Origin: a virus
IMG/VR virus record: IMGVR_UViG_3300046749_000116
Location: 1 to 24,673 of that record
Strand: one strand, 5' to 3'
Length of the DNA stretch: 24,673 nucleotides
Both the position numbers and the translations under genes were made by a program. Shown here piece after piece: positions 3,014 to 17,600 of the stretch. Below the pieces are notes generated by a model. That model had not been told where the DNA came from and made no database searches. It was given only the letters and a program-made list of their open reading frames with translations. The number at the start of each line of letters is the position of its first letter. Within the stretch, counting starts at the first letter, position 1.

Positions 3014-3214
3014 ATGCAAACAGCTGAACAAAAGAGATTAGAAGAGAAATTATCTTTACCACCTATGATATTCGCTATTGAGAAGGCTACCGCGATACTC
3101 ATATTTAAGCAGCGTCAAAAGTTGCACCGCCTTCTCACAACCAAGGAGTTGACAGCACTACCTCGTGGAAAAGACCGCGAGGCTTTGCTCTCGACAATAA
3201 TAGGGAGAAAATAA
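3014..3214 (+). CDS. Small hypothetical protein
   Basis: A 66-residue protein with a near-perfect ribosome binding site (AAGGAGG, 3002-3008). It is predicted mainly helical, with a hydrophobic stretch at about residues 15-31 that is too interrupted by charges for a confident membrane helix, then a basic helix (KQRQKLHRLL). No family is recognised. The stop codon overlaps the start of the porin-like gene by one base, so the two are probably translated together. Confidence 0.55.
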   Translation: MQTAEQKRLEEKLSLPPMIFAIEKATAILIFKQRQKLHRLLTTKELTALPRGKDREALLSTIIGRK

Positions 3215-3816
3215 TGAAAAAAGTACTCGCACTACTACTCGCTACAATTGCATTACCATCATTCGCTGGTGTTAATGGAAATGTTGGAGTATATTCTGAC
3301 TACTTCTTTAGAGGCGAAAGTCAAACTATGGGAAGTATGGCAGTTCAAGGGAACTTGGATCTGGACTATAAAGGAGCATATGGTGGCGTTTGGGTATCAC
3401 AAGTTGATATAATGGACGCAGACTGGGAATATGACCTTTATGGAGGATACAGATTAAACCTCAATGATACATGGTACGTTGACGGAGGAGTCATTCAGTA
3501 TAGATATGACGACAAAGCAATAGATCACGTTGAAGAGTGGTTTGTAAAAGGTGGGAACAATTGGATTGAACTCGCTATGTGGACAGATATGGACGACAAA
3601 GAAAAGCAATACAAAGAGGTAACTCTTAAAATGCCTTTAATTACAGTTGTTGATATATCACTAAGACATGGCATGTTTGATGATGATTCAGACTACCAAC
3701 AGCTAACAATTTCAAAATCTATGAGAAACTGGACATTAGGAATGGAAGTTCTTGATGGAGCCAGAGATGGAGAGTTTGTTGACTCAGCAGCATTTTTTGT
3801 CAGTAAATCATTCTAA
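3214..3816 (+). CDS. TorF-family (Gcw_chp) putative outer-membrane porin
   Basis: A 200-residue protein with a clear Sec signal peptide (MKKVLALLLATIALPSFA, cleavage expected after residue 18). The mature part shows the start pattern GVYSDYFFRGESQT, then AVQGNLDLDYKGAYGGVWVS and YDLYGGYRLN, which is the hallmark of the TorF/Gcw_chp family (Pfam Gcw_chp, TIGR02001). The rest is amphipathic strands ending in a C-terminal phenylalanine (SKSF), typical of beta-barrels inserted by the BAM machinery. It would act in the host outer membrane. The family is widespread in proteobacteria with poorly known function. In a phage it may change receptor display, block superinfection or aid uptake; all three are inference. 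The start follows AGGGAG and overlaps the previous stop. Confidence 0.8.
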   Translation: MKKVLALLLATIALPSFAGVNGNVGVYSDYFFRGESQTMGSMAVQGNLDLDYKGAYGGVWVSQVDIMDADWEYDLYGGYRLNLNDTWYVDGGVIQYRYDDKAIDHVEEWFVKGGNNWIELAMWTDMDDKEKQYKEVTLKMPLITVVDISLRHGMFDDDSDYQQLTISKSMRNWTLGMEVLDGARDGEFVDSAAFFVSKSF

Positions 3817-3947
3817 TGCCCATTAGAAAGACAAAGAAAGGCTGGAAGATAACCAATACTCCCGGTTTATCGAAAACTAAAAAGGCAGCGAAGCAAAGAC
3901 TTCGAGCCATAAAGTACAAACAAGGGAAAGGACGCAAAAAGCGTTAG
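3816..3947 (+). CDS. Very small basic protein (43 aa)
   Basis: ATG 3816 overlaps the porin stop by one base, and TAG ends the frame at 3945-3947. The protein has 43 residues, about 40% Lys/Arg, with TPGLSKTKKAAKQRLRAIKY in the middle. This resembles short phage proteins that carry a KT-x-KAA-x-RQ-x-RAI pattern, of unknown function. It directly precedes the second beta-rich protein, as the basic gene at 2143 precedes the first. Confidence 0.6.
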   Translation: MPIRKTKKGWKITNTPGLSKTKKAAKQRLRAIKYKQGKGRKKR

Positions 3948-3957
3948 GAGAAATTAA

Positions 3958-4227
3958 ATGTCAGTAAGATTTATAGGAGCAGAAGCAGCAGCAGGCACCT
4001 CAGCAGGTGCTTCAAGTAACTTCGAACTCGCGACAGAAGTAAGACTAGTGAATCTAGCCGCAGCTGAAGCCACCATCACAATATTGAATGGTGCGTCAGG
4101 AACAAACGTGCAAGGTTCATTTACTTTAGAAGCAGGAGCTTCGGAATACATATCTAAGGATATGGAAGATAGAATATACGCCTCAGCCGCAACGGTTAAG
4201 GGTGTACCAATTAACACAAGAAGGTAA
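3958..4227 (+). CDS. Small beta-rich protein, possible virion decoration; similar to the gene at 2467
   Basis: An 89-residue protein with ribosome site AGGAGAAATT. An Ala/Ser/Gly-rich N-terminus (residues 7-20) leads into a compact beta pattern: VRLVNLAAAEATITI, GSFTLEAGA, then RIYASAATVKGVPI. The spacing and the last motif match the product of 2467-2775. Similar short proteins occur in phage structural regions, where a trimeric or decoration role is often supposed. No direct evidence for incorporation into virions can be seen here. Confidence 0.65.
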   Translation: MSVRFIGAEAAAGTSAGASSNFELATEVRLVNLAAAEATITILNGASGTNVQGSFTLEAGASEYISKDMEDRIYASAATVKGVPINTRR

Positions 4228-4231
4228 CATT

Positions 4232-4456
4232 ATGAAAGAGGTCGATGGTAGAACTCTATGGCTACAAGAGAGCATTGTGAATGCAGCTAGCTTTACAGCA
4301 GCACTTGACATGGTAGCAGGAAAAAGAGAACTTAGTAGAAAAGAGAGGGATATGAAAAATGTTGCTCTTGCTTTTATGTACCTCTATAATGTTGTTGAGG
4401 AGCAAGGTCTCCTCAATGAAGTCGATTCATTTTTTAGTAATGAGACGATTCACTAA
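4232..4456 (+). CDS. Hypothetical protein upstream of terminase (small terminase position)
   Basis: A 74-residue helical protein. ATG 4232 is preferred over 4202 because it follows AAGAAGG and does not run through the previous gene. Its stop overlaps the start of the large terminase by one base. The small terminase subunit usually sits here, but this protein is short and I see no clear helix-turn-helix. Residues 38-47 (ELSRKERDMK) are charged, and the C-terminal half could form a packing helix (VALAFMYLYNVVEEQG). A reduced TerS is possible; an unrelated gene is equally possible. Confidence 0.5.
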   Translation: MKEVDGRTLWLQESIVNAASFTAALDMVAGKRELSRKERDMKNVALAFMYLYNVVEEQGLLNEVDSFFSNETIH

Positions 4457-5757
4457 TGTTAGAAATATCTAGAAAAGACATACTTCCAGACAACTTAATG
4501 GAGTTTCAAAGTGAAAACCGCTTTATTAAGTTACCGATACATGGCTACATGGAGCTACTAGGCATACAGCCTAATACTACTCAAGTAGCCATTATCAACG
4601 CAATTAACAATCCGAAGTATCGTTTTGTTACTGCGGCAGTCTCACGTAGACAAGGTAAAACATACATTGCTAATGTAATTGGTCAATTAGTTACTTTAGT
4701 ACCAGGCGCTAACGTTCTGTTAATGTCGCCTAACTACTCACTCTCGCAGATTTCATTCGACCTTCAAAGAACACTCATAAAACATTTTGAGCTAGAGGTA
4801 ATTAAAGATAATGCAAAAGATAAAGTTATTGAACTTTCGAACCATAGTACGATACGTATGGGCTCGGTTAATCAAGTGGATTCAGTCGTTGGTAGGTCCT
4901 ATGACCTCATCATCTTCGACGAAGCCGCACTTGTGGATGGAAGGGACGCTTTCAACGTCGCACTACGACCTACACTAGATAAAGAAAACTCCAAAGCTAT
5001 ATTTATATCTACCCCACGTGGTAGGAATAATTGGTTTGCGGAGTTTTGGCATAGAGGGTTTTCAGGGGAGTTTCCAGAGTGGGCATCAGTAAAAGCCACG
5101 TATCATGAAAACCCAAGAATTTCTGATGAAGATATCGCTGAAGCAAGGAAAACCATGTCGGAAAGCGAATTCAATCAGGAATATATGGCAGACTTCAATG
5201 TATTCGAAGGGCAAGTATGGGGTTTCAAAAGAGACAAGTGTCAGCAGGATTTAGCCGAATTAGATACTACAGGCATGGATATATTTGCTGGAATGGACGT
5301 AGGTTATAAAGACCCTACAGCTTTCTGTGTAATAGCATATGACTGGGACGCAGGTAAATATTATTTACTAGATGAGTATATGGACTCTGAAAAAACAACA
5401 GAACAACACGCAGAAAAAATCAGAGAACTAATCAATAAATGGGATATAGACTATATCTATATAGATTCAGCAGCACAGCAAACAAGATTTGATTTTGCAC
5501 AAAACTACGATATTAGTACTATTAACGCAAAGAAATCTGTTTTAGACGGAATAGGTCATGTCGCAGCAATCTGTGATAATGATAGACTTATAGTTGATCA
5601 AAGATGTCACGAGACTCTAATCTCCCTTGACCAATACCAATGGGATCCCAATCCGAATTTATTGAAAGAGAAACCAAAACACAACATGGCATCACATATG
5701 GCTGATGCATTACGGTATGCGTTGTACTCGTTCGAGACAAGTGCCACTAGCTTCTAA
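4456..5757 (+). CDS. terL: Terminase large subunit
   Basis: A 433-residue DNA-packaging motor with ATPase and nuclease halves. The ATPase half shows a Walker A-like motif SRRQGKT (63-69), Walker B LIIFDEAA with D155 and E156, and the coupling motif FISTP (183-187). The nuclease half has an RNase H-like core: D281 in MDVGYKDPTAF, D337 in IYIDS, and H414 with D417 in HMADALRYALY. All key residues are present and the length is normal. It would cut concatemeric DNA and pump it into the prohead through the portal encoded at 6187. It starts by one-base overlap with the preceding gene. Confidence 0.95.
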   Translation: MLEISRKDILPDNLMEFQSENRFIKLPIHGYMELLGIQPNTTQVAIINAINNPKYRFVTAAVSRRQGKTYIANVIGQLVTLVPGANVLLMSPNYSLSQISFDLQRTLIKHFELEVIKDNAKDKVIELSNHSTIRMGSVNQVDSVVGRSYDLIIFDEAALVDGRDAFNVALRPTLDKENSKAIFISTPRGRNNWFAEFWHRGFSGEFPEWASVKATYHENPRISDEDIAEARKTMSESEFNQEYMADFNVFEGQVWGFKRDKCQQDLAELDTTGMDIFAGMDVGYKDPTAFCVIAYDWDAGKYYLLDEYMDSEKTTEQHAEKIRELINKWDIDYIYIDSAAQQTRFDFAQNYDISTINAKKSVLDGIGHVAAICDNDRLIVDQRCHETLISLDQYQWDPNPNLLKEKPKHNMASHMADALRYALYSFETSATSF

Positions 5758-5828: not shown

Positions 5829-6200
5829 ATGGAACTAAAACGAGATCTAGTTAAATATGTTCGGGACAAGGCTAAGTCGAAATACAATAAAGGGACGGAA
5901 TGCTTTATCTGTGGAGCAACAGAGAATCTCGACTTTCATCATTTTCACGGTCTAACAGAGTTGTTAGAGATTTGGCTGAGAAAGAATAAGATTAAAATAA
6001 CTGATGCAGAAGATATTATGGGTATCAGAGAAGAGTTTATAACTGAACACAACGAACAAATTTACGAAGCTGCTGTTACATTATGTCACGAACATCATAT
6101 GAAACTTCACTCCATCTACGGCAAACGCCCTCGAGTAGTAACAGCAAAGAAACAAGAAAGATGGGTGGGTATACAGAGAGACAAATATGGCATGGTATGA
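5829..6200 (+). CDS. HNH endonuclease
   Basis: A 123-residue protein with an HNH/zinc-finger layout: C25 and C28 (CFIC), the HHFH motif at 37-40, and CHEHHMKLH at 86-94. Cysteine pairs bind structural zinc, and the histidines form the beta-beta-alpha metal nuclease centre. In HK97-like phages an HNH protein encoded next to the terminase stimulates cutting and packaging, and the position between terminase and portal fits. A free-standing homing endonuclease is the alternative. It is the first gene after P2, has only a weak ribosome site (GGAATAAG), and its end overlaps the portal start by 14 bases. Confidence 0.8.
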   Translation: MELKRDLVKYVRDKAKSKYNKGTECFICGATENLDFHHFHGLTELLEIWLRKNKIKITDAEDIMGIREEFITEHNEQIYEAAVTLCHEHHMKLHSIYGKRPRVVTAKKQERWVGIQRDKYGMV

Positions 6201-14627: not shown

Positions 14628-17600
14628 ATGGCACAGAAAAAAGTCGAAGCAGCTGAAATTATTATAAAAACCACTGATGGTGGTTCTTTTAAAATTTTTG
14701 GTCAAAAAGCTAAGAAGGCAACTAAACAAGTAGATGATTTAGGAAAAGCTTCTCAGTCAACAGACCGTCGAATAAAAGGCGTAACTCAGCAATCTTCAAA
14801 CGCAACCAAAAACTTTAGCAAGCAAGCACAAACCATGCAAGGTGGGATTGTTGCTGTCTACGCAACCATTGCTGCTCAAGTATTTGCTGTTTCAGCGGCA
14901 TTTCAATTCTTAAAATCCTCAATGGAAACCCGAAACCTCATAGAGGGCCAAAAGGCCTTCGGAGCAATCACGGGCGTTGCATATAAAACTTTAACAAACG
15001 ACTTACAAATGGCAACTGAAGGTATGCTAGACTTTAAGGCGGCCGCAAGTTCTGTAGCTATTGGTACTGCTTCAGGTTTAAGTGCAAGTCAAATGACATC
15101 ATTAGGGGTAGCCGCAAAAAACGCTTCTATGGCACTAGGTCGAGATTTAACAGACTCATTCAACAGATTAGTTCGAGGTGTGACAAAAGCCGAACCAGAA
15201 CTATTAGATGAATTAGGTATTGTACTAAGACTAGAAAATGCTACTAGAGACTACGCACAGTCTGTAGGTAAAGCTAGAGATGATTTGAATGCTTTTGAAC
15301 GAACGCAAGCAGTTTTAAATGACGTTTTAGAACAGGCGGAACAAAAGTTTGGTAGAATAACTGAACTTATGGATCCAGACGCTTTTGCACTTGGACAGCT
15401 AACAAAAGAAATCGACGATTTAGTACTAGGGTTCCAAGAGCTTTTAGTAAAAGTCTTACTACCTATGATTAGCTTTTTTAAAGATAATGCTGCAGCACTT
15501 GTTGCAGCCATTGGTTTATTTGTTACTCCTATTATTAGTAGTTTACTCCCAGATTTAGACGCATCTATTGCTAAGTCATCTAAAGCACAATCTACAGCAC
15601 TTAGTAATATGGCTGGCTCATACAGAACAGCAGGACAAGAAATTAGAACTGTTATGACAGGTCTAACAAAAATTACAAAAGCAGATATAAGTGAATCCGC
15701 AGTCGGGTTAGATAAATTAGGTGTTACAGGCAAAGGCGCCGATATTATGGAGACTGATGCTAAAACAGGAAAGACTGCTAAGACTGGTTATAAGCAATTA
15801 AATAGAAGACAAGTAGCTGCATATAGAAGAGCAATTAAAGAGAAAAAAGGTATCTATATGAAGTTTAATGCTGAGGAAAAAGTAGCATTTAAACGTCACT
15901 TAGCTACTCAAGAAGCTCTCTTAAATAAAAGCGAAAAAGTTAAATTAGGCATTAGAAGACGTGGTCAGCTTTTAATAGATGCAACATATAATGCAGGAGT
16001 TACAGTATTTGCAGCAGCTGAAGCTGCTAAACTACAAATAGCAAAAGTCGGAGCAATGGCAATGAATGCAGTAATGAGTATTGCAGGTGTTCTTGGAGTA
16101 ATTGCTATGGTTATTGCAGGAGGTAAAGCATTATTTGATTACTTCCAAAAAGGAGACAAAGCAGCACAAAAGTTCAAGAAAGAAACACAAGAAGTTAGTG
16201 AAAGATTAAAAAGTATAAATGAAGAAATGGATCGTATGGGTAAAGTTCGTGACCAAGGATTATTAGGACTTGTTGATGGAGTAGGCCAAACTGGAAAAGC
16301 ACTACAATCTGCAGATATTGTAAAACTAGTTGCTAATTATAATCAGGAGTTAACGAAGTCAGGGAAATCAGCATCAGAATTTAGGAAGACTGAGCTCGGT
16401 CAACAGTTTCAGGAACAGGCTCGTCAAATAGAAAAACTTGCACCTGGAATGAAAGGTTTCCAAGCAGACTTAATGGCAGGGGCTAAAAACGGCGACGAAT
16501 ACAAACAAATAGCTAATGATATAATCAATGGAGCTCAAGCTCTAGAAAGATTTGCAGCGAATACTAAATCAGTTAATAAACAAATTGAAAAAACTATAGG
16601 AAGAATGGCAAAACTACCTTTCCAAGATTTAATGAAACCTCTTCAAGCTTCTGTTGATGATTTTGCCCTTGCTGTAATTCAGTTATCAGCTAGAATTCAA
16701 GAGATGAAACAAAATAAACAAAACGCTAGTGGGTTAGCCTCAAACTTTGGATCGGGCATCTATAGTGAAAAACTGCTATACCGTGACAGAGGAAATAATA
16801 CTAGTACTAGCACAGTAAGTGTATATGATGAAAAGGCTCGTGACAAAGCTGCAGAGCAATTCATGAATAGTGGAGCCATGGGACAAAGCTATGGAACTGG
16901 ACTTCTAGGGGCGCAAAATATGGTAGCAGATTTAGGATTGACTACTGATACTATGGCTATTGGGGACGAAGTTGATATGAATAGTAGTGTACCTGAAATC
17001 ATTAAGGGACTGCTAGCAATAGACGGCAACGCTGAGTTGATAGCGAAGAAGTTTGGGAAAAGTAAAAAGGAGCTGGAGAAGATGGCTAAGGCAGTAGCGG
17101 ACGCTGAAAAAGAGCTGGCTCTTATGGAACTAACTAATGAGACTAATAAAACCTTGCTTCAAGAAATGAAATTTATCCAAGAAGACATGCTGGCGTTAGA
17201 GGAAAAGAAAATACAAAACGCACAAACTTTAGCAGAGAAAGGAGTAGGAAGTGGAAAAGGTGTTGCAATGGCTAAAGCTCAATACAAGGTTTCGGTAGCG
17301 GGAGAAAAGAAACTGAAAGCTGCCGCTGACGCCCGAGTAGCAAAAGCAAACAAACAACTAGAAGTAAACAAACTATTAGATAGACTTCAAGTAGATGGAG
17401 TAATCACAGCAGATGACAGGGAGAAGCTGCTAAAAAATGAAACTGAACTTTTAAGCATAGCAAATGGAGTAACAGGGGAATCATACAAAACGCAGGTATT
17501 AGCAGTAACAAATGGTAAAAAGGCAGTTGCGAATGCAGATAAACAAGTAACTTTACAAGATCAATTATTTAAGAATGCAGGCGAACAACTTACCTTAGAC

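Follow-up and report, generated by a model that had tools for sequence, protein, structure and literature searches.

The stretch of DNA analysed here (the window, 24.7 kb) is an IMG/VR virus record, a metagenomic contig of a marine phage. It encodes a large terminase subunit (TerL), portal, head protease/major head protein, major tail protein, tape measure and minor tail proteins, in keeping with the phage setting that a first-pass annotation of this DNA had proposed. TerL is 50% identical to the TerL of T5-like Vibrio and Serratia phages, and none closer was found in the annotated phage collection; this identity, together with the structural gene set, indicates that the window phage is T5-like. 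Upstream of the terminase lies a gene for a secreted protein of the TorF (Gcw_chp) family, and the features on and around it are collected in Table 1.

Table 1. Features of the TorF locus in the window (the barrel, signal peptide and loops are predicted).
Feature	Positions	Strand	Evidence or remark
CHASE2-adenylate/guanylate cyclase, C-terminal end, cut by contig end	3-905	+	PF00211, 1.4e-23
Small conserved gene, directly upstream of TorF	3014-3214	+	Stop overlaps TorF start by one base; left cassette border
AGGGAG ribosome-binding site	3202-3207	+	6 nt before ATG; sequence reading
Phage TorF-family (Gcw_chp) outer-membrane 12-stranded beta-barrel, 200 aa	3214-3816	+	PF09694, TIGR02001, AlphaFold, dN/dS
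Sec/SPase I signal peptide	3214-3267	+	Sequence reading; cleavage predicted after PSFA (residue 18)
First extracellular loop, family signature SDYxxRGxSQ	3295-3339	+	Residues 28-42
Last extracellular loop, DGARDGEFVDS	3754-3786	+	Residues 181-191; alignment A5
Small basic-protein gene, directly downstream of TorF, conserved	3816-3947	+	Start overlaps TorF stop; right cassette border
Large terminase subunit	4456-5757	+	PHROG terminase matches; marks phage as T5-like

The TorF ORF starts with ATG and overlaps the genes on both sides through TAATG. As read from the sequence, its product starts with MKKVLALLLATIALPSFA/GVNG, a Sec/SPase I-type signal peptide without a lipobox, and its terminal residue is Phe. 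The profile search that the first-pass annotation had suggested as a check gave a clear match to TIGR02001, 'TorF family putative porin' (E = 3.4e-27, 95.6 bits, cut-off 47.15), as well as to PF09694 (E = 1e-15, 58.8 bits, cut-off 24). The TIGR02001 match covers positions 27-217 of 244 and the Pfam match only 10-106 of 230, the C-terminal half being shorter and more divergent than the family profiles. All 44 phage members examined matched TIGR02001 at E 0.001, and 43 of the 44 matched PF09694. The ORF is conserved in the same place in other contigs (57-100% identity), and dN/dS between phages is 0.11-0.20, which denotes purifying selection and hence a protein kept by selection; conserved place, family matches and dN/dS together put the ORF far beyond chance. 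PHROGs holds no family for the protein.

An AlphaFold model computed with 44 diverse phage homologues (pLDDT 91.9, pTM 0.81) contains a signal helix (residues 2-13) and 12 strands, with a strand starting at residue 19. This model replaced an earlier one from 14 close homologues, which had a pLDDT of 55 and gave no useful fold match. The best PDB matches are outer-membrane barrels, VhGalP, KdgM, OmpG and OMPLA among them, and the match to 4pr7 (KdgM-type) had TM values of 0.62/0.71. The protein is accordingly predicted to be a narrow 12-stranded barrel. Both profiles being over their cut-offs and the fold in agreement, the earlier identification of a Gcw_chp/TorF outer-membrane protein in a phage can be upheld, as can the description of a complete signal peptide followed by a (predicted) beta-barrel, and we regard the window protein as almost certainly an outer-membrane barrel of the TorF family. 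A virion component was considered and rejected in view of the cleavable signal peptide and the predicted outer-membrane barrel.

Two relatives (L027 and L028, TerL 92% identical) lack TorF, and there 5 nt separate its two flanking genes, as judged from tblastn ends; where TorF is present, the same two genes are 605-618 nt apart. More generally, relatives that lack TorF have the 3816-3947 gene next to the 3014 gene. TorF was found in 6 of the 35 loci that span cyclase to terminase. Other members of the group carry it in a second position (slot B), just behind the cyclase and followed by an IscU-like gene, and no Isc gene adjoins it in the window position (slot A). By these gene-order comparisons, TorF is a precise accessory cassette.

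Several neighbouring genes were noted alongside. The cyclase, which lies near TorF within the T5-like group, is a phage class III nucleotide cyclase with CHASE2 that is conserved across this group and 43% identical to one in pelagiphage HTVC008M; a full-length relative has CHASE2 and cyclase domains. Two relatives of the window phage (L018:302-6032 and L113:9069-14849) have a whole curli-like module consisting of CsgF, CsgG, two secreted curlin-type proteins, FecR and the CHASE2-cyclase, with Curlin_rpt (PF07012) over its cut-off in L113; the window cyclase is the last gene of this module. Pelagimyophages and phage Melnitz have been described with CsgF/CsgG and without CsgA/CsgB (PMC7029224, PMC9004378), so phage-encoded curlin subunits look new. 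In many phages, IscU-like (NifU_N) and IscA-like genes for Fe-S assembly directly adjoin TorF; in L228-L260 and L267 they follow it immediately, and in L113 they lie at 15955-16738. Upstream of the terminase, a series of genes (1390-2457 and 3816-3947) encodes very small proteins rich in Lys/Arg; such proteins are kept in the phage group, their place and presence varying between phages. The genes at 2467-2775 and 3958-4227 match the same PHROG (19805) and are apparent paralogues flanking the TorF cassette, and an HNH-endonuclease-like gene (5829-6200) has the terminase on one side and the portal on the other. Riboswitches were sought near TorF because methylophages use them; searches for glutamine and other riboswitches gave only two matches in the window, both far short of their gathering scores, and nothing but tRNAs in 12 related loci.

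A profile scan recovered TorF relatives at 220 IMG/VR loci, 80 of which (39-100% identity) were kept; all phage contigs with TorF are metagenomic. In two of these contigs, of 129 and 114 kb, the portal is that of T4 (E about 1e-175) and TerL shows no more than remote similarity, from which it follows that T4-like phages carry TorF too. There the gene lies in a region of SbcC/SbcD-like genes, and in another contig it lies among UvsX, helicase and thymidylate synthase genes. The annotated phage collection yielded only two Gcw_chp matches, which bear the label Acinetobacter phage MD-2021a and were rejected as phage homologues: in the inspected contig (CAKLQH020000037.1, L015), fadD, dapA, ppa and oprD-type genes surround the Gcw_chp gene, and with such ordinary bacterial genes the record looks like mislabelled bacterial DNA.

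Genome contigs gave no match when scanned with the single window protein, and an alignment-based search was needed to reach bacterial relatives, which are about 27-35% identical to phage TorF over long stretches. A first tree comprised 57 phage and 80 bacterial sequences; in it, a branch with an SH-aLRT of 99 has the phages as one of its sides. A second tree was built after adding the closest bacterial matches from 369 and 289 genomes and a few others; 49 of its 50 distinct phage rows still group (support 91), and two long branches, the phage row L112 and the bacterial row L294, stay unplaced at its base. With phage profile A5, the best bacterial score was 126 bits among the 369 genomes of one class and 105 bits among the 289 genomes of another, and phage members score at least 146 bits with the related profile A4. 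The closest bacterial TorF proteins, at no more than 126 bits, come from the class sampled around a gammaproteobacterium. Phage proteins measure 192-213 aa and those of the first bacterial set 211-297 aa, one fragment aside; a few further bacterial TorF proteins have 198-215 aa. The phylogeny against bacterial TorF proposed in the first-pass annotation thus sets the phage members apart, and phage TorF is, at the level of sequence, a clade separate from the sampled bacterial TorF, carried by marine T5-like and T4-like phages.

This distribution bears on the idea that TorF acts with the curli-like module (CsgF, CsgG, curlin-repeat proteins, FecR and CHASE2-cyclase) in adhesion or surface remodelling. 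TorF does lie close to the module in T5-like relatives, but none of the module was present within the fetched flanks of T4-like and other phage TorF loci, many phages have module genes without TorF, and the neighbours of bacterial TorF are transporters. A joint surface function is therefore distinctly improbable.

The predicted barrel was then considered for charge and conservation. By strand alternation, not coordinates, the lumen has 12.9 acidic and 2.8 basic residues, and the lipid face, assigned in the same way, is neutral (2.4 acidic, 3.1 basic). The same lumen measure gave 9.8 acidic and 2.5 basic residues for bacterial Amt-linked TorF. Three acids placed in the lumen by this assignment, E72, D74 and E108, hardly vary across phages and bacteria; D125 and D147 are acidic in phages, and in bacteria these positions are mostly occupied by Ser, Thr, Gly or Ala. 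The external loops are short, and none of the extracellular loops is unusually variable. Within the phage set the first of them varies least (entropy 1.01), with Y30, R33 and G34 invariant and D29 and Q37 nearly so across phage and bacterial TorF. In the last loop, the motif DxARxGxxxD is common to many phage members, and almost all bacterial TorF proteins have a gap in the column of D190. A conserved first loop and the lack of any unusually variable one are unlike what would be expected from an arms race over a surface mask.

Such a mask had been proposed in the first-pass annotation by analogy with lambda Lom and Bor. In superinfection exclusion, the displayed barrel, or a host porin receptor displaced or masked by it, would stop sister-phage adsorption. 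T5 itself carries a receptor-blocking lipoprotein, Llp, and an accessory gene found in 6 of 35 loci, lying among structural genes a short way before the terminase, would suit this role. Nothing found supports the analogy: fold and signal type differ from those of Lom, Bor and Llp, the short loops lack excess variability, and the pore residues of the bacterial family are conserved. Moreover, the genes beside TorF include neither a receptor-binding gene nor a candidate receptor, and unrelated T4-like phages carry the same family in a replication/recombination-gene region. We consider superinfection exclusion unlikely. The position beside structural genes expected to be expressed late might suggest an outer-membrane destabiliser acting at lysis; a folded, closed barrel (as predicted) with conserved pore residues, clear homology to normal bacterial putative porins and the location near replication/recombination genes in T4-like phages make this highly improbable.

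A clue to a cargo came from the operons of bacterial relatives. Eighty bacterial TorF loci were selected solely by similarity to the phage protein, the sample coming from two classes only. Within 2.5 kb of TorF, amtB and/or glnK were present at 22 of the 80 loci and kdp at 16, 38 together, always on the same strand as TorF; the other 42 loci had neither ammonium nor potassium transporter genes. This directed test superseded an undirected neighbour-cluster count, which had pointed to kdp and was noisy owing to the antisense frames of GC-rich genomes. In Idiomarina, TorF lies between kdpC and kdpD; a streamlined 1.3-Mb genome of the sampled gammaproteobacterial class has the order TorF-glnK-amtB, and a 0.9-Mb genome has TorF-amtB. 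Among the ten bacterial loci scoring highest with the phage profile (L275-L284), nine have glnK and/or amtB adjoining TorF. Since AmtB occurs in 1-3 copies per genome (12 genomes checked), chance adjacency would, on a rough estimate, be about 1% or less. No paper stating this link was found in the open-access literature, and what was found there on TorF channel activity consists of annotations, with no experimental data. One such annotation calls a Shewanella torF a TMAO reductase system outer membrane porin (PMC5955497).

Against an ammonium or potassium channel in phages speak the 42 bacterial loci with neither transporter; also, no AmtB or GlnK gene was found in the fetched phage TorF loci, and the IscU-like neighbour in many phages could suggest iron. 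The barrel might then pass Fe2+ and work with the adjoining phage IscU/IscA-like proteins of many relatives. An IscU-like gene directly follows TorF in nearly all slot-B phages, IscA and IscU stand beside a divergent TorF in L113, and the acidic lumen would suit such a cargo; yet no Isc gene adjoins TorF in slot A, the arrangement of the window, and bacterial TorF adjoins ammonium and potassium systems. An iron channel is decidedly unlikely.

The reading we prefer, to which we give a probability of about 0.5, is that a minimal cation-selective channel, placed in the outer membrane by the phage, feeds the infected cell, most likely with ammonium. The infected cell would gain a phage-encoded, secreted outer-membrane barrel, and because its putative lumen is acidic, small cations would be expected to pass and anions not. 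NH4+ and K+ are similar small monovalent cations. Since the bacterial relatives lie in glnK-amtB and kdp operons, it is outer-membrane permeability to ammonium (most likely) or potassium that would be raised; the inner-membrane transporters of the host would be fed through the barrel, and nucleotide and protein synthesis for virions would then not be limited by supply. The phage would have kept a minimal barrel of about 200 aa, with E72/D74/E108 plus the extra acids D125 and D147. Ammonium, potassium or, given the IscU neighbours, Fe2+ is the presumed cargo, and a benefit to virion production is likewise presumed. A nutrient porin had been among the suggestions of the first-pass annotation, and it gains support from the HMMs, the fold, the acidic lumen and the relatives in ammonium and potassium uptake operons; the channel itself we infer from these.

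More tentatively, marine T5-like and T4-like phages may have domesticated a minimal TorF barrel once and exchanged it, using it as an ammonium/potassium outer-membrane channel during infection, and the whole bacterial TorF family may supply the outer-membrane component that the AmtB-GlnK and Kdp uptake systems have so far lacked; taken together, we find this combined proposal possible but doubtful. If the channel reading is true, phages alter how readily nitrogen or potassium crosses the outer membrane of the marine bacteria they infect. This would be a layer of viral metabolic control absent from lists of auxiliary metabolic genes, which miss TorF because the family is named 'putative porin' or unknown. 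The operon link also suggests, in a form open to test, what this large and functionally uncharacterised proteobacterial family may do, namely provide an outer-membrane NH4+/K+ route coupled to AmtB and Kdp.

Among solved porins, the oligogalacturonate porins KdgM and VhGalP (PDB 4pr7, 4fqe, 8xua) are among the closest by fold. They are 12-stranded monomeric barrels, and the phage TorF model likewise has 12 strands, but identity in the fold match is only 8-13% (8-9% to KdgM), and KdgM was absent from a sequence profile search of the PDB with TorF. Moreover, the KdgM/VhGalP channels are basic and carry acidic sugars, whereas the putative TorF lumen is acidic. Lambda Lom and Bor and T5 Llp are likewise phage-encoded, and they reach the outer membrane, as is predicted for TorF. 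Of these, Lom forms an 8-stranded barrel of the Ail type, and Bor and Llp are lipoproteins; TorF differs from the former in its predicted 12 strands and from the latter in having an SPase I signal and no lipobox. An outer-membrane porin supplied by a phage or prophage is also known in Lc/NmpC of PA-2, which is trimeric, of OmpC type and found in lambdoid prophages, whereas TorF is a small barrel of marine phage contigs. Pelagimyophages and methylophage Melnitz are marine phages that encode CsgG/CsgF outer-membrane pores, for which molecule uptake is one proposal (PMC7029224, PMC9004378); CsgG, a nonameric lipoprotein secretion pore, is unrelated to TorF. Bacterial TorF/Gcw_chp shares with the phage protein the signal peptide, the SDYxxRGxSQ loop, the near-universal E72/D74/E108 and the terminal Phe. 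Phage TorF is set apart by its own clade, a length of about 200 aa against mostly 211-297, the extra lumen acids D125/D147, a phage-typical last loop and a position outside transporter operons.
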